Below the pieces are notes generated by a model. The model ran no database searches. It worked only from the letters and a program-made list of their open reading frames with translations, and was not told where the DNA came from. Position numbers and translations under genes: made by a program. Below are positions 44,352 to 55,759 of a stretch of 64,000 bases of DNA, piece after piece; the first letter of the stretch is position 1, and the number at the start of each line of letters is the position of its first letter. Source of the DNA: Nocardia vermiculata NBRC 100427 (GTDB taxonomy: Bacteria; Actinomycetota; Actinomycetes; Mycobacteriales; Mycobacteriaceae); assembly GCF_001613265.1 (NCBI RefSeq), contig NZ_BDCA01000028.1, positions 1 through 64,000 of the forward strand, read 5' to 3'.

Positions 44352-45743
44352 TCAGGCGGGGCCGGGGCCGGGCAGCATGCCGGTCGAGGCGGTGGTTCCG
44401 CAGAATTCCTCGATCCGCTCGTCGAGGTGGCGGGCTTCGACCGCACCCTGGAATCGCGGCGTGGCGATGCGGCGCCGCAGACCCGTCAGCCGCTCCCCGA
44501 GCTGTGCGATCCGCCAATTCTCGGAGAGCTCGAGCACCGGGCGCAGGGCGTCCCCGGCGCCGTCGAGGCTGCCGTTGATGAGCTGAGCGGCCGCGTTGTC
44601 GACCCGGGCCAGCGCCTCGGCGCCGTAGGAACGCTGTTCCACCGGGCCGGCGCTGTACAACTCGATGGTGCGGGCGGTCTCGGCGAGCGCCGATTCGGCC
44701 TGGCCCAGATGGATATAGGTGGCACCGGCGTAGTAGTGGCTCTTGGCCTCCGGGAAGCCGAAGACACCACCGGTCTCGTCGTGCAGGACATCGGTGCCCG
44801 ATTCGGCGCGGGCGGTATGTGCGGCCTCGATGCAGCGCGCGGCGTCGGTGGCGCTGCCCAGCTTGGACCAGATACGCGCCTCGATATTGTGCAGCCGCAC
44901 CTTGGCCGTCACCGAATCCGCATAGAGATGCCCGTTCTGTGCCAGCTCCACCGCGTGCCGCGGATGTTCGGACCAGTATTCGATCAGCGCCTGCATACCC
45001 CGGGTCCACGCCCGTAAACCGTTGTGCCCGCATAACTCCGCATAGGCCCAGGCAGCACGCGCCTGTTCGCCCGCGGCATCCAGATGGCCGAGATCGGTAC
45101 TGGCATTGGCCAGCAGGCCCGACAACGTTCCTGCCAGCAGATACAGATGGCTGGTATCCGCGGGCTTCTGCTGCCCCTCGAGCAGGCGATATACGCGCCG
45201 GCGCACCCGCAGCATCTCGACCATCATCGGAACCGGCGGCACGTGAACGTATTCCCTGGCGATGCGGGTGGCATCGGCGTCGAGTTGTTCCAATGCGGAG
45301 GCGCCGACATTACTTGCCTCGGCGCGACCGGCGTGCTCGCTGGCTTCGTGGGCAGCCGCCATGATGAGATCCCTCTCCGAAATTTCGGCCAACGCATCAC
45401 CTCGCATCGCACCGGCGTCTACGAGTGCCAAGAGTTCAGCGTCGCTCGAATACTTGCTGTGCGCCGAATGGTGGTAGCGCACCTCTGAATCCGGTTCCGG
45501 CCGATCGATGACGGGTTGATCGATCATGACCGCGAACCGTGCCCGCACGACGTCGTCGGACCTGGCGAGTGACGTGTCCAGCGCGGCCTGGTTGACCGGC
45601 CGGGGATGCACTTTCGCGCCCCCGGCCTCCCATTTGGACACCAGGCGTTCGTGGACACCCAAATGGGCCGCGAATTCCCTGATGCTCATCCTTTTGGCAT
45701 CGCGAAGGGCGCGGGCTTCTCTACCTGACCACTGCCTGACCAC
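44352..45743 (-). CDS. XRE-TPR transcriptional regulator
   Basis: 463 aa from the GTG at 45743 (GGAAGGGA upstream). The N-terminus is VVRQWSGREARALRDAKRMSIREFAAHLGVHERLVSKWEAGG, a helix-turn-helix typical of actinobacterial XRE-TPR regulators. Residues ~190-440 have repeated helical pairs (LLAGTLSGLLANASTDLGHLDAAGEQARAAWAYAE, AGATYIHLGQAESALAETARTIELYSAG) of TPR type. Such proteins sense peptides or other ligands in other genera. Repeats GGGCAGTGA sit in the divergent promoter and may be its sites. Confidence 0.85.
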   Translation of the reverse strand: MVRQWSGREARALRDAKRMSIREFAAHLGVHERLVSKWEAGGAKVHPRPVNQAALDTSLARSDDVVRARFAVMIDQPVIDRPEPDSEVRYHHSAHSKYSSDAELLALVDAGAMRGDALAEISERDLIMAAAHEASEHAGRAEASNVGASALEQLDADATRIAREYVHVPPVPMMVEMLRVRRRVYRLLEGQQKPADTSHLYLLAGTLSGLLANASTDLGHLDAAGEQARAAWAYAELCGHNGLRAWTRGMQALIEYWSEHPRHAVELAQNGHLYADSVTAKVRLHNIEARIWSKLGSATDAARCIEAAHTARAESGTDVLHDETGGVFGFPEAKSHYYAGATYIHLGQAESALAETARTIELYSAGPVEQRSYGAEALARVDNAAAQLINGSLDGAGDALRPVLELSENWRIAQLGERLTGLRRRIATPRFQGAVEARHLDERIEEFCGTTASTGMLPGPGPA

Positions 45744-45851
45744 GATGTCATCCCTTCCGCGCGAACTGTTCTCCAGAGTACGAGCGGACCGTGATCGCAG
45801 CCACAACCGAAATCGAGCTGGTATCGGGAAAGGCGCTGGTCCCGGCCACAG

Positions 45852-45969
45852 GGGCAGTGAAAGGGCAGTGAAGAGCGCGTGTGGGGGCATTTCCAGGACC
45901 GCACAGCGGCGGGACCCTTGAAACGTGAATGCCATTGGGGCAGTGACGCCGAATGCCGTGGGGCAGTGA
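45852..45969. repeat. Four GGGCAGTGA repeats in the XRE-TPR promoter region
   Basis: GGGCAGTGA occurs at 45852-45860, 45863-45871, 45938-45946 and 45961-45969, all in the same orientation, with centres 11, 75 and 23 bp apart, close to whole helical turns. All lie between the divergent genes at 45743 and 45974. Confidence 0.65.
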
Positions 45970-45973
45970 AGCC

Positions 45974-46423
45974 GTGAATGTCGAGAAGCTCAGGACCGCC
46001 GACGACTGGGTGATGTTCTACCGCCATCGAGCTGGTCTGACATGTATTCAGCGTGGTGGATTCGTCACGCTGCCGATTACCGGCACCGTAGGTGTGCTGA
46101 ATGTGCCCACCGAACAGTCGGAATCGGTGTACCGGTCGCTCACCGAGCACGGTGCCTGTGGTCCGGTCCTGGCCCGCCGGGCGCGCTGGAGCTTCCTGGT
46201 CGCTCCCGATATCCGGCCGGGTGCACAGGTCTCGGAGTTGCTGAGCCGCCTGAAGATCGGCATTCCGTCGCCCGGTGGCGAAATCATGATGCCCACCGGC
46301 CTGGGTCGCCGGACCCGCGAAGGCTGTCACTGGATCGTGGCGCCCGCGCCGGGCCGGGAACTTCCACCACTATCGAGGGTCGTTACGACGGCGCTGGCGG
46401 TGGGAAGGGGTGGCGAGGACTGA
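45974..46423 (+). CDS. Unknown protein paired with the XRE-TPR regulator
   Basis: 149 aa from the GTG at 45974; an ATG at 45953 is possible. It reads WVMFYRHRAGLTCIQRGGFVTLPITGTVGVLNVPTEQSESVYRSLTEHGACGPVLARRARWSFLVAPDI, ...GGEIMMPTGLGRRTREGCHWIVAPAP. The GGxIxxPTG and W segments recall the N-terminal part of bifunctional primase-polymerase proteins but the catalytic acids are not visible, so this is likely a shortened relative or an unrelated fold. In actinobacteria such genes commonly face an XRE-TPR regulator. Confidence 0.6.
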   Translation: MNVEKLRTADDWVMFYRHRAGLTCIQRGGFVTLPITGTVGVLNVPTEQSESVYRSLTEHGACGPVLARRARWSFLVAPDIRPGAQVSELLSRLKIGIPSPGGEIMMPTGLGRRTREGCHWIVAPAPGRELPPLSRVVTTALAVGRGGED

Positions 46424-46807
46424 ACCCGCAGACCGGTCCTCGCTGCCGCCGGACCGGGTCCGCCTCGATGCCTGTCGGGGGCGGGCCCGGATTCGGGACC
46501 GTACGGCCTCCCGGTGTGACCCCGCGCCCCGACGCTGCCTGAGGGTTCGGCGGGTACTCGCCGATTCCGGTAGAACGGCTGTCATGGTCGGCCATCGGAG
46601 CACACAGCGGCGTGCGCCCGCGACGGCGCATGCTCCCTACCTGTGCCCGGGTTCGCAAGGTGTTTCCGGTCAGTGGGAGATGTTGTCCTCATTTCCGGGA
46701 GTCCGGCCGACAGATGATAGTAAGGAAGGTTCTGTGGCCTCGCCGCTCTCGCTGGAGATGTAGACGGTAGATGGTCGGTGCCGTCCATATGTTTGGCAGG
46801 AGTTGTA
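46424..46807. other. Intergenic region before the NRPS gene
   Basis: This 384-bp stretch has no convincing gene. I looked for an IdeR/DtxR-type iron box and found none. An AGGAG site (46798-46802) immediately precedes the NRPS GTG start. AT-rich patches near 46710 and 46760 could carry the promoter, but no box can be assigned safely. Confidence 0.4.
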
Positions 46808-49800
46808 GTGTCCTTTGGCGAAAATCCGGATAGCGCGCGCTCGGGCCGAAGGAGTCCCCGCCGCGCGCGCCCGTCCCGAACGGCGCCCGTCCGGACCTTG
46901 CCCACTCTGCTGTCGGCGGCCGCAGCGCAGAATCCGGACGGCGTGGCCGTGGTCGACGGCGCGGTGTCGATGACCTATCGCGAGCTCGATCGGTGGTCGT
47001 CCCGGGTGGCGCGGTTGCTGATCGATCGCGGGATCGGTCCGGAAGATATGGTCGCGGTGGGGATTCCGCGGTCGCGCTGGTCGGTGGCGGCGGCCTGGGC
47101 GGTGACCAAGACCGGTGCCGCGTTCGTGCCGGTGGATCCGCGATACCCGAGCGACCGGATCGCCTACCTGCTCTCCGACTCCCGGGCCGTATTGGGACTG
47201 ACCGTCACCGGCAGTGCGGAAAGTATGGCCGGGGAGCCGGATTGGCTGACCGTCGACACCGACCAGTTCGAGGCGGACTTGTCGCACTGGTCGGCCGAAC
47301 CGGTGAACTTCGCGGATCGGGTGCGGCGGCTGCACGGTGCGCATCCGGCGTACGTCATGTACACCTCCGGGTCGACCGGGCGGCCGAAGGGCGTCGTCGT
47401 CACCCATGCCGGGCTCGCGAATTACTGTGTCGAACAACGTGACCAGTTCGCCGTGACGGATCGGTCGCGCACCCTGCACATCGCGTCGCCCAGTTTCGAC
47501 GTGTCGGTCGGTGAATTCCTGCTCGCCTTCGGTGCAGCCGCGACGATGGTGATCGCCCCCGCCGACGTATTCGGCGGCGCCGAGCTCGCCGAACTGCTGC
47601 GGCGGGAGCGGGTCACCCATGTCACGATGACCCCCGCCGCGCTCACCACGGTCGACCCCACCGGCCTGGACGAGTTGCGTGTGATCGGCGTGATCGGCGA
47701 GGCGTGCCCACCCGAGCTGGTCACCCGGTGGGCGACCGAGATTCCCGGCGGCCGCCGCGAGTTCTACAACACCTACGGGCCCACCGAGGCCACGATCGTC
47801 ACCCATGTCGGCGACCCGCTGGCCCCGGGCGCGCCGGTCACCATCGGCCGTCCGGTCCGGGGCATGACCTCGCGGATTCTGGACGACCGGCTGGCGCAGA
47901 CGGCGCCGGGACAGGACGGCGAACTGTATCTGGCCGGGCCGGGGCTGGCGCGCGGATATCTGCGCCGACCGGATCTGAGCGCGGACCGGTTCGTCGCGGA
48001 CCCGTACGGCCCGCCGGGCAGCCGCATGTACCGCACCGGAGATCTCGCCCGCACCACAGCGGACGGCCTGTGGGAATATCTGGGCCGCAACGATTTCCAG
48101 GTCAAGATCCGTGGTTTCCGAATCGAACTCGGCGAGATCGACAGTGCTTTGGTCGCCCATCCGGAGATTCACTTCGCGGTCACCATCGGCCGCCGGATGC
48201 CGTCGGGCGAAACGCTGCTGGTCGGCTATGTGGTGCCCGAACCGGGTGCCGCGCCGGACCCGGAACAATTGCGCGAGTTCGCGGCGCGCACGCTGCCGGT
48301 CCACATGGTGCCGCCGGTGATCATGCTGCTGGAGCAACTTCCGCTGACTCCGGTCGGCAAGCTCGATCGCACGGCGCTACCGGAACCGCCACTGGAGGTA
48401 CAGGAGTACCGTGCACCGGAGACAGGCACCGAACAGGTCGTCGCAACGGCGATTGCGGGACTGCTCGGTCTCGAGCGGGTCGGCCTCGACGACGACTTCT
48501 TCGCGTTGGGCGGCAATTCACTGCTGGCGGTGCGCGCCGCCGCGTGGATCGGCGGTGAACTCGGAGTGCGGGTGCCGCCACGCACCTTCTTCACCGCCGA
48601 TACCGTGGCCGAGCTGGCGGACGCGATGAGCCGGCTGACGGTGGCGGAACGACCACGGCTGATCGCACGGTCGCGGCCGGACCCGATGCCGGTCTCGGCG
48701 GCACAGCAGCGGTTGTGGTTGACCAACCAGTTCGACACCGCCTCGGCGGCATACAACATCCCGTTCGCGCTGCGCCTGACCGGTGCGGTCGATGTGCAGG
48801 CGTTGCGGGCGGCGGTAGCGGATGTGATCGAGCGGCACGAGCCGCTGCGCACGCTGTATTCCGATCACGACGGTGAACCGGTCCAGGTGGTCCTGCCGGT
48901 CCCCGACGCCATGCCCGAACTGGTCGTGGAAACCGTTGCTGCCGAACAGATCCCGGAACGCCTCACGGCCATCGCCGCCGCCGGGTTCGATCTCCGCTCG
49001 GACCTGCCGGTACGGGCGAGCCTGTTCCAGCCGGCCGACAACGAGTACGTCCTCGCCCTGGTGATGCACCACATCGCCTGCGACGGCACCTCCTTCGCGC
49101 CGTTGGCCCGTGACGTGGTGGCGGCCTATCAGGCCAGGACTACCGGCGCCGCTCCCGAGTGGCGCCCGTTGACGGTCACCTACGCGGACTACGTGCTGTG
49201 GGAACGTGAGGTGCTGGGGCCCGAGACGGACGAGGATTCGCTCGCCGCGACCCAGGCCCGGTATTGGCAGCAGCAGTTGGCGGCAGTCCCCGACGGACTG
49301 GAGTTGCCGCTGGACCGCCCCCGCCCCCCTGTCTGGTCCGGCCGGGGTGCCACCGTCGACTTCGAGCTGAACGCCGAGGTCACCGCGGGTCTGCGCCGAG
49401 TCGCCGATGAGCACGACGCCTCGCTGTTCATGGTGGTACACGCGGCGTTGGCCGTGCTGCTGGCCCGGCTGTCGGGCAGTGCCGATATCGCGATCGGGAC
49501 ACAGATCTCCGGACGTGGCGCCGCCGAACTCGACGACGTGGTGGGCATGTTCGGCAACACGCTCGTGCTGCGCACGGACGTCGACGGCGCTCAACCGTTC
49601 GGCGCATTCCTGGACGGCGTCCGCGAGACCGATCTGGCCGCGATGGAGCACGCGGAACTCAACATAGATCGGGTGGTGGACCTGGTCCGGCGCGGCAGCA
49701 ACCGGGCGCCGCTGTTCCAGGTGTTGTTGATGCTGCAGAACTTCGAGCAGCCGCGGATCGACCTGCCGCAGGTGTCGATCGAGCAGTTGCAGCTCGATGT

Positions 49801-52800
49801 CGCTGTCGCCAAACTCGATCTCTCGGTGACGCTCACCGAACAGCCCGACGGGCAGGTGGCCGGGGTGATCGATTACGCCACAGACCTGTTCGACCACGCC
49901 ACCGTGGCCGCGATGGCACGTCGTTTCGTCGCGATTGCGAGCGAGATCGGCCGCGACGAGACGGTCGCCGTCGGCGATATCGCACTGCTCACCGCGGACG
50001 AACATGCCCTGCTGGCCGCGCTGGCCGGACCGCAGCCCACATCCGGCACCGTGCTGGACGGCTTTCTCGCTCAGGTGTCGCGGACACCGCATGCACCCGC
50101 CGTGGTCTTCGGTGAACAGCATTGGAGCTACGGTGAATTCGCCGGCTGGGTGAATCGGCTGGCGCGACATCTGCTGTCGCTCGGCGTCGGCCCGGAGGTG
50201 CGGGTGGCGGTCGCGATGCGGCGGTCCCCGGACATGCTGGCAGCGATCTACGCGGTGCTGGTCGCCGGTGGTGCGTACGTGCCGCTCGATCCCGATCATC
50301 CTGCGCAGCGCACCGACTACATCCTCGATGTGGTGCGGCCCGCCGCCGTGCTGACCACGGGTGACTCGACGACCTCCGGTGATGCGGTGCGGTGCGACGA
50401 ACTCGACCTCTCGCGGTACTCGCCCGAACCGGTGACCGATGCGGAACGGCGGCGCCCGCTGCGACCGTCGAATGCCGCGTACACGCTGTTCACCTCGGGG
50501 TCCACCGGCCGGCCGAAGGGAGTGGTGGTCACCCACCGCTCGGTCGTGAATCAGCTCGCGTGGATGCGTGAACAGTACGATCTCGGCCCGGCCGACACCC
50601 TGTTGCACAAGACGCCGGTGACGTTCGATGCCTCGGTGTGGGAGTTGTTGCTGCCGTTGGCGGTCGGTGCGCGGTTGGTCATCGCTCCGCACGACGGTCA
50701 TCTGGACCCGGCCTATCTGGTGGACACCATGCACCGGTACCGGGTGGCGATGGTCGAGTTCGTTCCGTCGATGCTGGCGCTGCTGCTCGATGACGAGGCA
50801 ACGGAATTCCCGGACGCGCTTCGATACTTCTCACTCGGTGGCGAGGAATTGCCGGTCGGCCTACTGGACCGGGTACGGCAGCGGCATCCCGCCGTGGTGG
50901 ACAACACCTACGGGCCGACCGAGGCCACCGTGACATCGACGGTGTTCCGATGTGCCGGTGTTGTGGACGGGCGGGTGCCGATCGGTCGACCGATCCGCAA
51001 TACCGGTGCTGCCGTGCTGGATTCGCGATTGCATCCGGTGCCACCAGGGGTACCGGGAGAGCTGTATCTGTCCGGCGTGCAGCTGGCGCGAGGATACGAG
51101 GGTGCGAGCGCGCAGACGGCGGCACGATTCGTCGCCGACCCGTCCGGCAGGCCGGGGGCCCGCAGGTACCGGACCGGTGATCTGGTGCGGATGCGCCGCG
51201 ATGGCACCCTGGAGTTCCTGGGCCGCACCGATTTCCAGGTGAAACTGCGTGGCCTGCGGATCGAACTCGGCGAGATCGAGGCGGCGCTGGTGCGTCACCC
51301 GGCGGTGGCGCGCGCGGTGGTCACCGTGCAGCGACCGGAGCGGACGGGCGAGTTGCTCGCCGCCTATGTGGTGCCCGAGACGGGTGCCACGATCGATACC
51401 CTCGACCTGATCGAGCGGGCACGTAAAACACTGCCGGAGTACATGATTCCGCATCATATCGTGGTGCTGGAGCGGCTTCCGCTCACCCCGAGCGGCAAAC
51501 TGGACCGCCGGGCGCTGCCGGTGATCGAGGCGGCCATCGGGACTCCGCGATACCGTGCGCCCGTCACGGCGGCCGAACACACGATCACCGCGGTGTTCGC
51601 GGAGTTGCTCGGTGTCGAGCAGGTCGGGGCGGACGACGACTTCTTCGAGCTGGGCGGCAACTCGCTGATCGGGATGCGGGTAGTGGCGCGGGTGAACGCC
51701 GCGCAGGGCACCGGATTCGGAGTGCGGGACCTGTTCGAGGCGCCGACGGCTGCCTTGCTGGGTGCCCGGGCCGACTGCACGGTGCCCGCACCGGTCCGGC
51801 CGCAATTGGCGACGATCACTCGGCCGCAACATCTTCCACTGTCCTTCGCGCAACGGCGGATGTGGTTCCTGAACCGGTTGGCTCCCGGATCGGCCGCCTA
51901 CAGCATCCCGTTGGCGGTGCGATTGAGTGGGACGATGGACGGTGCGGCATTGGCCGCCGCAGCCGTGGATGTGCTGGACCGGCACGAGGCGTTGCGAACC
52001 CGGTATCCCTCCGGTGCCGAGGGCCCGTATCAGGATATCGTCGCCGCGGCTCGGGTGCCGTTGACGCTGGAGCCCGAGAACGTCGAGCCCGAGCAGGTGC
52101 CGACACGGATCGCCGAGATCGCCGGCGCCGGTTTCGATGTGACGGCGGAGGTGCCACTGCGCACCGCACTGCTGCGTCTCGCACCCGACGACCATGTGCT
52201 GGTGCTGGTCGTGCATCACATCAACGCGGACGGCTACTCGATGGGGCCGTTGGCGCGCGACCTGGCGCTGCGTTACGCGGCCCGGGCCACCGGGGACACG
52301 CCCACGTGGGCGCCGCTGCCCGTGCAGTACGCCGATTACACGCTGTGGCAGCGGGAGGTGCTCGGCGACGAGGACGATCCGGACAGCCTCGCTGCCCGCC
52401 AGATCGCCTACTGGACCGAGGCGCTGGCCGGAATTCCGGACCAGCTCGAGCTGCCCGCCGACCGGCCACGGCCGGCGGTGGCATCTCAGGGTGGGGCCGT
52501 GCACCGGTTCGTGTTGTCGCCGGAATCGCATCGCGATGTGAAAACACTGGCTGCCGAGCGGCATTCGACCACGTTCGCCGTCGTGCACGCCGCTTTCGCG
52601 GTGTTGTTGGCGCGGCTGTCGGGGACCGAGGACGTGGTGGTGGGCACCCCGATCGCGGGGCGTGGTGCGGCCGAACTCGACGATCTGGTCGGCATGTTCG
52701 TCAACACGCTCGTACTGCGCGCCGCGGTGGCACCCGATGCGTCGTTCGCCGATCTGCTGACCGCGGTGACCGGGACCGACCTCGCGGCCTTCGACCATGC

Positions 52801-55759
52801 CGACCTCCCGTTCGAGCGGCTGGTCGAGATCCTGGATCCGCCCCGGACGCAGGCGCACAGCCCGCTGTTCCAGAACATGCTGGTCCTGCAGAATCAGCAA
52901 CAGCCGCGACTGGATCTGGACGGCCTGTCGATCGAACTGTTGCCCGCCGACACCGGGGTGTCTCCGTTCGACCTGTCACTCACGTTGACCGAACAGTTCG
53001 ACGCTGCCGGCGACCCGGTCGGCATCATCGGCGAATTGACCTACGCCACCGACCTGTTCGACCACGGCACCATGGTCGCGCTGGCCGGACGCTACGAGCG
53101 CATTCTCGCTGCCGTCGGCGCCGATCCGCATCGGGTAGTCGGGGATATCGACGTCCGCACCGACGGTGAACGGCAGGCAACGGTGCTGCGTGGGCCGGAC
53201 CAGGTACGCGGTGATCAGGGCACCGTGCTCGATCTGTTCCACGCTCGGGTGGCGACCGATCCCGATGCGGTGGCGGTGGTGGACCACGTGACCGGGCAGC
53301 AGCTGACCTATGCCGAGCTCGCGACGCGTGTCCACCGCTCGGCCCGTGGTCTCGTGGCCCGGGGCATTGGTGCTGAACGCCTGGTGGCGCTGGGCATGCA
53401 GCGGTCGCTGGATTTCGTGGTGGCCGCCTATGCGGTCCTCGAGGCGGGTGCCGGATACGTCCCGCTGGACCTCGACCAGCCCGCCGAGCGCATCCGCTAC
53501 ATACTCGAGACCGCGGCTCCGGCATGCGTGCTCATCGACACGGCCGGTGAGTTCCCGGTCGGTGGCGTGCCGATCGTGCCCCTCGCGGAGCTCGATTCGA
53601 CCGGCCCGCAGGACAACCCGGGCGGACCGCTGACCGACGCGGAGCGGGTGGCACCGCTGCGGTCGTCGAATACCGCCTACGTGCTGTTCACCTCCGGTTC
53701 GACCGGACGCCCCAAGGGGGTCGTGGTACCGCATGCGGCGGTGCACGATCAGATCCGCTGGCTCACCGGCGAATACGGTATCGATGCCGACGACGTCGTG
53801 TTGTTCAAGACGCCGGCGACATTCGATGTGTCGGTGTGGGAGCTGTTCGGGCCACTCGCGGTCGGTGCCCGAATGATCGTCGCCGCACCCGACGGGCATC
53901 GCGACCCGCAGTATCTCGCGGAAGTGATATCTGCCGAGCAGGTCACGATGACGTCGTTCGTGCCCTCCATGCTGACGGTGTTCGCCGGCAGTGTCGCCCC
54001 CGCAGCGATCGCGTCGTTGCGGTCGGTGCTGGTGGCGGGTGAGGCGCTCACTGCCGATACCGTCGCGGCGTTCCGCCGGGTCGGGACCGCCGAGTTGTTC
54101 AACCTGTACGGTCCGACGGAGTTCACGGTGCACGCCACCCACGCCAGGGTCGGCACCGATGTCGCGGGCGCGGTGCCGATCGGTCGTCCGGTGACCGGCA
54201 CCGAGGCCTGGGTACTGGACTCACGCCTGCATCCGGTTCCGGTGGGTGTCCCCGGCGAGCTGTATCTGGCCGGTGCTCAGGCGGCCCGCGGATATCTGGG
54301 CCGCGCTGATTCGACCGCGGCGGCGTTCGTGGCGAACCCGTATGCGGCCAACGGTTCCCGGATGTATCGCACCGGTGATCTGGTGCGGCGGGGCGCCGAC
54401 GGGCAGCTCACCTATCTCGGCCGCACCGACTTCCAGGTGAAGCTGCGTGGCGTCCGGATCGAGCTGGGGGAGGTCGAGTCCGTACTCGCCGGCCACGAGT
54501 CGGTGCAGCGGGCGGTCGCGGTGGTGCGTTCGGATGCGCAGGCCGGCGATCGGTTGGTGGCCTATGCGGTGCCTGCCGTGGCCGGTGCCGAGCTGGATGT
54601 GGAAGCGCTGCGTGCACACCTGTCCGCCCGGCTGCCCGCCGCGATGGTTCCCGCCACGATCATGGAGCTGGCGGCGATGCCACTGACCGCGAACGGCAAG
54701 CTGGATCGAAAGGCGCTCCCCGCACCGGTGTTCGAGGCCGCGGTCTACCAGGAGCCCGTCACCGCGGTGCAGCGGGCGGTCGCCGAGGTGTTCGGCGAGG
54801 TGCTGGGTGTCGAGCGAGTCGGGCTGGGAGACAACTTCTTCGAGTTGGGCGGCACCAGCCTGATCGCCGGCCGCGTGCTGACACTGCTGGGTGAGCGGCT
54901 GCGGATCCGGCCACGGGTGCAGTGGATCTTCGCCGCACCCACCGTGGCGGGGCTGGCCGAGCAGCTGATCGACGCCGCCGGGCCGGATACCGACGGTGAC
55001 GGTCTGGGGGTGCTGCTACCGCTGCGAACCGAGGGGAGCGCGTCGCCGCTGCTGTGCGTGCATCCGATGATCGGCCTGTCCTGGAGTTATGCGGCGCTGA
55101 CCGAACAGGTCCCGGACCGGCCGCTCTACGGATTGCAGTCGCCGGTGATCAGTGAGCCGGACACACCCGCGGGCACCGTCGAAGAACTGGTCACCCGGTA
55201 TGTGGCCGCGATTCGCCAGGTACAACCGCACGGCCCGTACCAGCTGCTCGGGTGGTCGCGAGGTGGTGTATTCGCCCACGCCATCGCCACCCGGTTGCAG
55301 GCCGAAGGTGAATCGGTGCCGACACTGGTGATGCTCGACAGCACCAGGCGCACCGATCCGGCCCGGTTCCGGGCCTTCCTCACCGACACGTTGCGTGAGG
55401 TCGGTATCGAACTCGGCGCCGACGACGAACTGGCCGCACTGAGCGACGAGCAGTTCGCGCTGCTCCTCGATTTCGTGCCGCGGGAGATGGTCTCGCTGAC
55501 GCCGGATCAGGTGCGCCGGATGTACCTGGCGGCCGTCGCCTCGATCGAACGCGACTACCGGCCCGGCATCTTCGACGGTGACCTCGTCTATGTGACCCCG
55601 GAACTGGAGCCCGAGCCCGACGGTGACGGCCCGTCCGAATGGTTCGACTACGTGAGCGGCACCGTCACCGAGCACCACCTGCCGTCGACGCACTCCGGCA
55701 TGCTCGACCCCGGTGTGGTGGACACCCTCGGCGCACTGCTGCGGGAGGTGCTGCGGTAG
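46808..55759 (+). CDS. Three-module nonribosomal peptide synthetase (A-T-C-A-T-C-A-T-TE)
   Basis: 2983 aa from the GTG at 46808 (AGGAG 6 nt before). Approximate order: A1 ~35-530 (YTSGSTGRPKG, NTYGPTEAT), T1 around 566 (LGGNSLL), C2 ~615-1050 (HHIACDG near 754), A2 ~1075-1570, T2 near 1614 (LGGNSLI), C3 ~1660-2110 (HHINADG near 1800), A3 ~2130-2640, T3 near 2679 (LGGTSLI), TE ~2740-2983 (GWSRGG; catalytic His in THSGML). The first module lacks a C domain, so this protein starts and finishes a tripeptide by itself. There is no epimerase domain. By hand I read the binding-pocket codes as roughly DVGTGITIVK, DAWEFLTVTK and DVWSLALVHK; the third looks Ser/Thr-like, the others are not assignable. 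No MbtH gene is near. Confidence 0.9.
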   Translation: MSFGENPDSARSGRRSPRRARPSRTAPVRTLPTLLSAAAAQNPDGVAVVDGAVSMTYRELDRWSSRVARLLIDRGIGPEDMVAVGIPRSRWSVAAAWAVTKTGAAFVPVDPRYPSDRIAYLLSDSRAVLGLTVTGSAESMAGEPDWLTVDTDQFEADLSHWSAEPVNFADRVRRLHGAHPAYVMYTSGSTGRPKGVVVTHAGLANYCVEQRDQFAVTDRSRTLHIASPSFDVSVGEFLLAFGAAATMVIAPADVFGGAELAELLRRERVTHVTMTPAALTTVDPTGLDELRVIGVIGEACPPELVTRWATEIPGGRREFYNTYGPTEATIVTHVGDPLAPGAPVTIGRPVRGMTSRILDDRLAQTAPGQDGELYLAGPGLARGYLRRPDLSADRFVADPYGPPGSRMYRTGDLARTTADGLWEYLGRNDFQVKIRGFRIELGEIDSALVAHPEIHFAVTIGRRMPSGETLLVGYVVPEPGAAPDPEQLREFAARTLPVHMVPPVIMLLEQLPLTPVGKLDRTALPEPPLEVQEYRAPETGTEQVVATAIAGLLGLERVGLDDDFFALGGNSLLAVRAAAWIGGELGVRVPPRTFFTADTVAELADAMSRLTVAERPRLIARSRPDPMPVSAAQQRLWLTNQFDTASAAYNIPFALRLTGAVDVQALRAAVADVIERHEPLRTLYSDHDGEPVQVVLPVPDAMPELVVETVAAEQIPERLTAIAAAGFDLRSDLPVRASLFQPADNEYVLALVMHHIACDGTSFAPLARDVVAAYQARTTGAAPEWRPLTVTYADYVLWEREVLGPETDEDSLAATQARYWQQQLAAVPDGLELPLDRPRPPVWSGRGATVDFELNAEVTAGLRRVADEHDASLFMVVHAALAVLLARLSGSADIAIGTQISGRGAAELDDVVGMFGNTLVLRTDVDGAQPFGAFLDGVRETDLAAMEHAELNIDRVVDLVRRGSNRAPLFQVLLMLQNFEQPRIDLPQVSIEQLQLDVAVAKLDLSVTLTEQPDGQVAGVIDYATDLFDHATVAAMARRFVAIASEIGRDETVAVGDIALLTADEHALLAALAGPQPTSGTVLDGFLAQVSRTPHAPAVVFGEQHWSYGEFAGWVNRLARHLLSLGVGPEVRVAVAMRRSPDMLAAIYAVLVAGGAYVPLDPDHPAQRTDYILDVVRPAAVLTTGDSTTSGDAVRCDELDLSRYSPEPVTDAERRRPLRPSNAAYTLFTSGSTGRPKGVVVTHRSVVNQLAWMREQYDLGPADTLLHKTPVTFDASVWELLLPLAVGARLVIAPHDGHLDPAYLVDTMHRYRVAMVEFVPSMLALLLDDEATEFPDALRYFSLGGEELPVGLLDRVRQRHPAVVDNTYGPTEATVTSTVFRCAGVVDGRVPIGRPIRNTGAAVLDSRLHPVPPGVPGELYLSGVQLARGYEGASAQTAARFVADPSGRPGARRYRTGDLVRMRRDGTLEFLGRTDFQVKLRGLRIELGEIEAALVRHPAVARAVVTVQRPERTGELLAAYVVPETGATIDTLDLIERARKTLPEYMIPHHIVVLERLPLTPSGKLDRRALPVIEAAIGTPRYRAPVTAAEHTITAVFAELLGVEQVGADDDFFELGGNSLIGMRVVARVNAAQGTGFGVRDLFEAPTAALLGARADCTVPAPVRPQLATITRPQHLPLSFAQRRMWFLNRLAPGSAAYSIPLAVRLSGTMDGAALAAAAVDVLDRHEALRTRYPSGAEGPYQDIVAAARVPLTLEPENVEPEQVPTRIAEIAGAGFDVTAEVPLRTALLRLAPDDHVLVLVVHHINADGYSMGPLARDLALRYAARATGDTPTWAPLPVQYADYTLWQREVLGDEDDPDSLAARQIAYWTEALAGIPDQLELPADRPRPAVASQGGAVHRFVLSPESHRDVKTLAAERHSTTFAVVHAAFAVLLARLSGTEDVVVGTPIAGRGAAELDDLVGMFVNTLVLRAAVAPDASFADLLTAVTGTDLAAFDHADLPFERLVEILDPPRTQAHSPLFQNMLVLQNQQQPRLDLDGLSIELLPADTGVSPFDLSLTLTEQFDAAGDPVGIIGELTYATDLFDHGTMVALAGRYERILAAVGADPHRVVGDIDVRTDGERQATVLRGPDQVRGDQGTVLDLFHARVATDPDAVAVVDHVTGQQLTYAELATRVHRSARGLVARGIGAERLVALGMQRSLDFVVAAYAVLEAGAGYVPLDLDQPAERIRYILETAAPACVLIDTAGEFPVGGVPIVPLAELDSTGPQDNPGGPLTDAERVAPLRSSNTAYVLFTSGSTGRPKGVVVPHAAVHDQIRWLTGEYGIDADDVVLFKTPATFDVSVWELFGPLAVGARMIVAAPDGHRDPQYLAEVISAEQVTMTSFVPSMLTVFAGSVAPAAIASLRSVLVAGEALTADTVAAFRRVGTAELFNLYGPTEFTVHATHARVGTDVAGAVPIGRPVTGTEAWVLDSRLHPVPVGVPGELYLAGAQAARGYLGRADSTAAAFVANPYAANGSRMYRTGDLVRRGADGQLTYLGRTDFQVKLRGVRIELGEVESVLAGHESVQRAVAVVRSDAQAGDRLVAYAVPAVAGAELDVEALRAHLSARLPAAMVPATIMELAAMPLTANGKLDRKALPAPVFEAAVYQEPVTAVQRAVAEVFGEVLGVERVGLGDNFFELGGTSLIAGRVLTLLGERLRIRPRVQWIFAAPTVAGLAEQLIDAAGPDTDGDGLGVLLPLRTEGSASPLLCVHPMIGLSWSYAALTEQVPDRPLYGLQSPVISEPDTPAGTVEELVTRYVAAIRQVQPHGPYQLLGWSRGGVFAHAIATRLQAEGESVPTLVMLDSTRRTDPARFRAFLTDTLREVGIELGADDELAALSDEQFALLLDFVPREMVSLTPDQVRRMYLAAVASIERDYRPGIFDGDLVYVTPELEPEPDGDGPSEWFDYVSGTVTEHHLPSTHSGMLDPGVVDTLGALLREVLR

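Follow-up and report, generated by a model that had tools for sequence, protein, structure and literature searches.

In S. venezuelae, the gap between the gene for the XRE regulator WhiJ9 and the divergent gene iosA holds three direct repeats; WhiJ9 binds them and mediates iosA activation, as described in PMC10294661. Direct repeats are likewise described for SARP operators, such as the afs box of AfsR, where they recur every 11 or 22 bp ahead of a weak promoter, with the last (3') repeat 8 bp from the -10 element (PMC10936776). Within the NsdA family, NsdA of Streptomyces rimosus (NsdAsr) is described as repressing antibiotic production and, by ChIP and EMSA, as binding many targets such as rpoB (PMC12243394); the words motif, footprint and repeat are absent from the main text of that paper, so the NsdAsr site is not comparable. 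Our limited literature search, which covered parts of the sources, turned up no binding motif for the NsdA family and nothing on tandem direct repeats with XRE regulators. Titles among the matches listed for the literal GGCAGTG looked unrelated, and the site-related terms looked for were absent from the XRE-DUF397 paper PMC10364602.

Here we describe a WhiJ9-type layout in Nocardia, in which an XRE-HTH regulator stands divergent from a small partner gene with direct repeats in the gap between them, found in the window (the whole 64,000-nt stretch of DNA that was analysed; Table 1). The interval 45744-45973, delimited in the first-pass annotation, is exactly the gap between the starts of the two genes. 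The regulator matched NCBIfam NF053720 (NsdA family) across residues 10-443 with 114.6 bits (cut-off 75) and Pfam HTH_3 with 24.1 bits (cut-off 23), and DUF397 had no Pfam match in either the regulator or the partner, the two proteins searched for it. An orthologue of the regulator occurs in all 59 genus genomes (E <= 9.7e-152), and it adjoins the partner on one contig in each of the 56 that have a partner orthologue. More widely, among 201 genomes from 31 genera, both proteins were found in 16 genomes belonging to 2 genera (E cut-offs of 1e-15 for the partner and 1e-40 for the regulator). The second genus (genome G085, locus L202, genus g28) holds the only non-Nocardia partner in the family sample, and the XRE gene next to it has an HTH that is different; upstream of this partner the GGCAGYG pair is absent and several GGCAAC repeats ~10 bp apart can be seen by eye. 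Another observation in the window is a 2993-aa reading frame (46778-55759) that starts ~350 bp after the partner and, on inspection by eye, resembles a multi-module non-ribosomal peptide synthetase.

Evaluating the gap itself revealed four exact copies of the 9-mer GGGCAGTGA in the same orientation, with starts 11, 75 and 23 bp apart, as the first-pass annotation had reported. Its placing of all four copies on the same helical face fails: at 10.5 bp per turn the sites fall at 0, 17, 69 and 137 degrees, random positions fall in an equally narrow arc in 22% of draws, and copies 1 and 2 alone are in phase, one helical turn apart. The four-copy group is the sole such cluster in the source genome, where the nearest two copies outside the gap, among the matches listed, are ~1.5 kb apart. 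Within the window, GGGCAGTGA is the single 9-mer with four copies within 127 bp, and a four-copy cluster of any 9-mer arose in 1 of 60 simulations (order-2 Markov, 64 kb).

Table 1. Features of the regulator-partner locus, in window coordinates
Feature	Position	Strand	Remarks
XRE HTH and TPR regulator, 463 aa	44352..45743	-	NsdA family; GTG start at 45743
Predicted -10-like TACTCT of regulator	45775..45780	-	conserved AGRGTACGAG in alignment
Operator-like conserved element, ~50 bp	45849..45896	+	match of model R1, E 3.5e-10
Copy 1 of GGGCAGTGA, conserved repeat 1	45852..45860	+	exact match, alignment, conservation
Copy 2 of GGGCAGTGA, conserved repeat 2	45863..45871	+	11 bp after copy 1; exact match, alignment
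GGGCATTTCC, conserved GGGCRWTWCC block	45885..45894	+	GGC 33 bp (3 x 11) after the GGC of repeat 1
Predicted -10-like GACCCT for partner	45913..45918	+	GA-N3-T-type motif
Imperfect tandem duplication	45927..45973	+	units 45927-45950 and 45951-45973 (24/23 bp), carrying copies 3 and 4
Copy 3 of GGGCAGTGA	45938..45946	+	source genome only
Copy 4 of GGGCAGTGA	45961..45969	+	source genome only; in partner translation-start region
Partner gene, 149 aa, GTG start	45974..46423	+	predicted primase-polymerase-like fold without catalytic acidic motif

Repeats of this kind might be a neutral or compositional feature of GC-rich DNA, given that the single 9-mer is common in the source genome (6.69 Mb contain 83 copies, compared with 31 of the reversed control) and that 21 different 9-mers occur twice within 20 bp in the window, with a simulated mean of 8.8. 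When one mismatch is allowed, GGGCAGTGA shows no enrichment across the whole window (15 observed, 19.1 expected). A 9-mer repeated within 20 bp is thus not rare, and copies 1 and 2 are notable because they are conserved. What makes a compositional origin barely credible is that the pair is near-invariant at 135 of 149 loci amid variable flanks and that its core is maintained after partner loss, as detailed below.

Aligning 30 orthologous gaps revealed the pair GGCAGYGNAANGGCAGYG, of which copies 1 and 2 are the core, in all 30 with at most 2 departures and with the repeats 11 bp apart; together with the in-phase GGGCRWTWCC block it makes up the conserved element. Across 149 partner-family loci (30 + 40 + 79; L143, whose sequence is cut off, was left out), 135 carried the pair upstream with at least 16 of 18 matching positions, and the 14 that did not (11-14 matching positions of 18) are partner paralogs. 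Removal of identical upstream sequences reduced the 149 loci to 109, and in the 92 main-clade sequences positions +0, +1, +2, +4, +11 to +15 and +22 are invariant, while the GGC at +33, +34 and +35 is kept in 90, 88 and 91 of the 92. Repeat 1, repeat 2, the +33 GGC and the -10-like motif hold a fixed spacing among themselves, and it is the distance to the partner start that varies, from 61 to 152 bp after repeat 1 across the 109 sequences. A variant clade of five members among the 109 has a third GGCAGYG repeat at +21 on the same strand, and genomes G020 and G229 carry imperfect versions of the element. Extra downstream same-strand copies of GGCAGYG number two in the window's own locus and one in L125 among the 109, with extra upstream copies in two loci (L067 and L072) and opposite-strand copies in 10. 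In the gap after the partner, 5 of the 79 named loci scanned showed a second pair-like site, lying ~570 bp (L106, L111 and L158) or ~558 bp (L105 and L114) after the partner start; in the three related species N. pseudovaccinii, N. vinacea and N. anaemiae such a second pair-like site is followed by a common GCCGAAACCCGTAC stretch.

A sequence-only model of the element, R1 (50 positions, built from 27 loci including the window sequence), returned one strong match in 50 of the 59 Nocardia genomes (E <= 1.5e-6); 27 of these 50 trained the model and so match by construction, and 23 did not. All 50 match places were checked against the partner places, and each lies just upstream of the partner. The nine genomes that returned no strong match are five of the variant clade (G015, G031, G037, G045 and G057), three partner-less ones (G019, G032 and G054) and G020. 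In a set of 150 Nocardia genomes that overlaps the 59, R1 had one match in 123 (E <= 2.5e-5; places not compared individually), with partner-less and variant-clade genomes among the 27 that had no strong match. As for a regulon elsewhere in the source genome, the window site, itself a training member, scored E 3.5e-10, the next match E 0.254, and there was no other R1 match below E 0.25. The first-pass annotation had considered that random regions of the genome might show a similar density of the 9-mer, which is not what we found, because there is one strong element site per genome. A looser two-repeat pattern with one mismatch was unspecific, matching 58 of the 59 genomes with similar counts for the reversed control in many. 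One-mismatch GGCCGCGNAAGGGCAGYG sites, which may be coding, also occur 16-20 kb from the locus in G007, G041, G051, G005 and G025.

Judging from conservation and placement in sequence, copies 1 and 2 with the GGGCRWTWCC block probably form a local operator that is dedicated to the divergent regulator-partner pair and bound by the regulator, in the manner of WhiJ9. For this operator we infer the identity of the binder, its cooperativity, the TPR contacts and the sign of regulation. The NsdA-type XRE regulator would bind head to tail, with each 11-bp repeat contacted by one HTH from the same side of the helix, its copies on the repeats would be held together by TPR contacts, and once bound it would set transcription of the partner and of its own gene. 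The first-pass annotation had read all four copies as cooperative binding sites of the regulator; for copies 1 and 2 a regulator binding site is still the best reading, as they are conserved genus-wide, mark one strong place per genome and stand one turn apart, but for copies 3 and 4, a single-genome tandem duplication that is out of phase, this reading is not supported.

Copies 3 and 4 have no counterpart in the alignment of 30 orthologous gaps, and a search for the segment that spans them, allowing up to 3 mismatches, found it in the source genome only out of 150 Nocardia genomes. They look like a local tandem duplication seen only in the source genome. A single cooperative array of all four copies, in which copies 3 and 4 would act as additional operators close to the start codon, would account for the exact identity of the 9-mers and for the 16-bp stretch around copy 3 that resembles the surroundings of copy 1 (14 of 16); we nonetheless consider it improbable, as none of the 149 other Nocardia genomes yielded the segment and the two copies are out of phase and look duplicated. 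In its stricter form, with the four sites on one helical face, the array is rejected because of the phase and because copies 3 and 4 were not found in other genomes. Any role of these two copies is putative, and they may add weak sites over the partner translation start. The duplicated unit also creates, at 45953-45973, an in-frame upstream ATG (MPWGSEAVNVEKL...), which may give the partner an alternative start in the source genome.

A sigma-70 consensus scan returned no promoter in the regulator-partner gap, and therefore both -10-like motifs in Table 1 are predictions from conservation alone. That of the partner is plausible on sequence grounds, since 92 of the 104 sequences have the GA-N3-T-type motif 60-62 bp beyond repeat 1, a count made with a pattern picked once the alignment had been seen and with no shuffled control. 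Activation of the partner by the regulator is favoured, because the predicted start comes ~60-70 bp downstream of the repeats and the block sits at around -35.

The 11-bp step itself raises the alternative that the site belongs to another regulator encoded elsewhere, with the XRE gene and the partner merely as targets, since direct repeats at this step are typical of SARP activators (PMC10936776) and not of XRE dimers. The neighbouring regulator, searched against Pfam and NCBIfam, had no match to a SARP domain. The paralogs of the regulator lend this alternative some weight as well: L182, which has a nearly identical HTH, has no such repeats upstream. On the other side, a regulator encoded elsewhere would not usually have one strong site per genome that falls at the gap in each of the 50 genomes compared. 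The predicted -10 stands ~20 bp past the last in-phase block as opposed to the 8 bp described for SARP promoters. We accordingly rate control by such a regulator as unlikely, though it is the strongest competitor to binding by the adjacent XRE regulator.

Looking for the motif in front of paralogous pairs, as the first-pass annotation had proposed, gave a negative result, with the motif before 0 of 34 partner paralogs (14 + 20, for most of the 20 of which an XRE neighbour was not established) and before none of the 11 regulator paralogs whose HTH is similar. The HTH regions of these eleven are 49-58% identical, and three of the eleven share one upstream sequence. The result from L182 and the other paralogs weakens recognition by the HTH and does not exclude it, because the paralogs may not regulate themselves. 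The element therefore appears to be an operator of the regulator-partner locus and not of the paralog family. It counts against the operator reading that palindromes are a frequent target of XRE regulators and that palindromes such as CCCGGAAAGATATTCCGGG lie upstream of the partner paralogs L071, L074 and L076, which stand beside other XRE-like genes. Operator type thus seems to differ among regulator-partner pairs.

Genomes that lack the partner offered a further view of what the element serves. A partner orthologue is missing in 3 of the 59 genomes (G019, G032 and G054), and these form one clade with G219 in a regulator tree of 21 rows (support 100/99). The upstream region is present in three of these four, G054 being cut by a contig end, and G219 is close to G032 and so no independent case. 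Across the first 27 element positions, the three sequences depart at 0, 1 and 1 of 15 core positions, values also covered by the 104 partner-bearing sequences (85, 13 and 6 with 0, 1 and 2 departures); the core positions were taken from partner-bearing loci, yet fixed after the partner-less sequences had been seen. Between G019 and G032, the pair positions differ at 1 of 15 core and 8 of 12 other positions (Fisher p 0.0027), a comparison that covers one lineage and assumes that partner loss predates the split. When the downstream block is included (18 positions), departures rise to 1, 3 and 3, compared with one at most in 98 of the 104 partner-bearing sequences, and the block is decayed in two of the three partner-less genomes. 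That the repeat core was kept after partner loss points to autoregulation, and the sequences suggest that the pair serves the regulator gene itself and that the downstream block served the partner. G320 was rejected as a partner-less case, as its partner is cut by an ambiguous assembly base, and G282 and G309 (88% complete) gave no partner match.

These genomes also bear on whether it is the partner, by itself or in complex with the regulator, that recognises the repeats. Its predicted primase-polymerase-like fold could contact nucleic acid, and the element lies upstream of the partner in most genomes; set against this are the core still conserved in the clade without the partner, the paralogous partners that have no site and the window protein in which no DNA-binding domain was found, so that recognition by the partner is a poor prospect next to binding by the regulator.

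Against Pfam and NCBIfam the partner gave no match up to E 1, and a profile search of solved structures with its family gave 0 matches up to E 10. Its predicted model (mean pLDDT 87.2) found its best structural match in the primase-polymerase domain of ORF904 from pRN1 (131 residues, rmsd 3.5, partner residues 6-148) with Z 7.3, where a Z under 8 may reflect only a common arrangement; many PII-like proteins came next, with Z ~5 over ~60 residues. Foldseek gave a probability of 0.91 for 1ro0, yet no match at E <= 0.001. PF09250 (Prim-Pol) was matched by 1 of 22 partner-family members (E 3.8e-4), and the window protein matched none of the families. Prim-Pol enzymes are described as having an acidic motif I of the form hhhDhD/E (PMC5862659), which is absent from all 44 and all 22 members of two overlapping partner sets, with 5 and 3 hits to a laxer pattern. 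If the modelled fold is right, the missing motif makes catalysis by the partner unlikely. The partner group has many paralogs in Nocardia, with up to 20 matches per genome, and a fold like that of a dead enzyme offers a lead to the function of this protein group. A more speculative reading, which we put forward as doubtful, is that regulator and partner make up a two-protein switch, in which a dead Prim-Pol-fold co-regulator, perhaps a sensor of nucleotides or alarmones, tunes the occupancy by the regulator of its own head-to-tail operator. Were this so, diverse partners, each with its own operator type, would amount to an unrecognised class of paired regulators in Nocardia.

The element is a precise candidate for the DNA site of an NsdA-family regulator, and with one conserved site per genome it lends itself to a simple binding test. 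The described NsdAsr is akin to the Nocardia regulator in belonging to the same named family. Regarding the partner, the likeness to Prim-Pol and archaeo-eukaryotic primases such as ORF904 lies in its predicted fold; the partner is shorter than ORF904 (149 against 210 residues), has no motif I and is not suggested to have a replication role. With SARP operators, as presented in PMC10936776, the Nocardia element shares the 11-bp step (0, 11 and a partial match at 33 bp), but its predicted -10 stands 60-62 bp after repeat 1 and SARPs bind through a different domain from that of the XRE-type regulator next to it. By analogy, the WhiJ9 operator is the nearest precedent for that of the regulator-partner pair. 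Following the account in PMC10294661, both systems have an XRE-HTH regulator, a divergent neighbour of unknown function and direct repeats in the common gap, and in both the repeats lie far upstream of the neighbour start (113 bp in the WhiJ9 system). They differ in repeat sequence (CGXXCTCAAC for WhiJ9 and GGCAGYGNAA in Nocardia) and in company, since WhiJ9 sits with a BldB paralog whereas the Nocardia regulator is of the NsdA family and its partner has a primase-polymerase-like predicted fold; binding has been shown for WhiJ9, whereas for the Nocardia operator it is a prediction from sequence. What is known, then, is the kind of system, and what is new is the motif, the NsdA family at such an operator and the fold of the partner.
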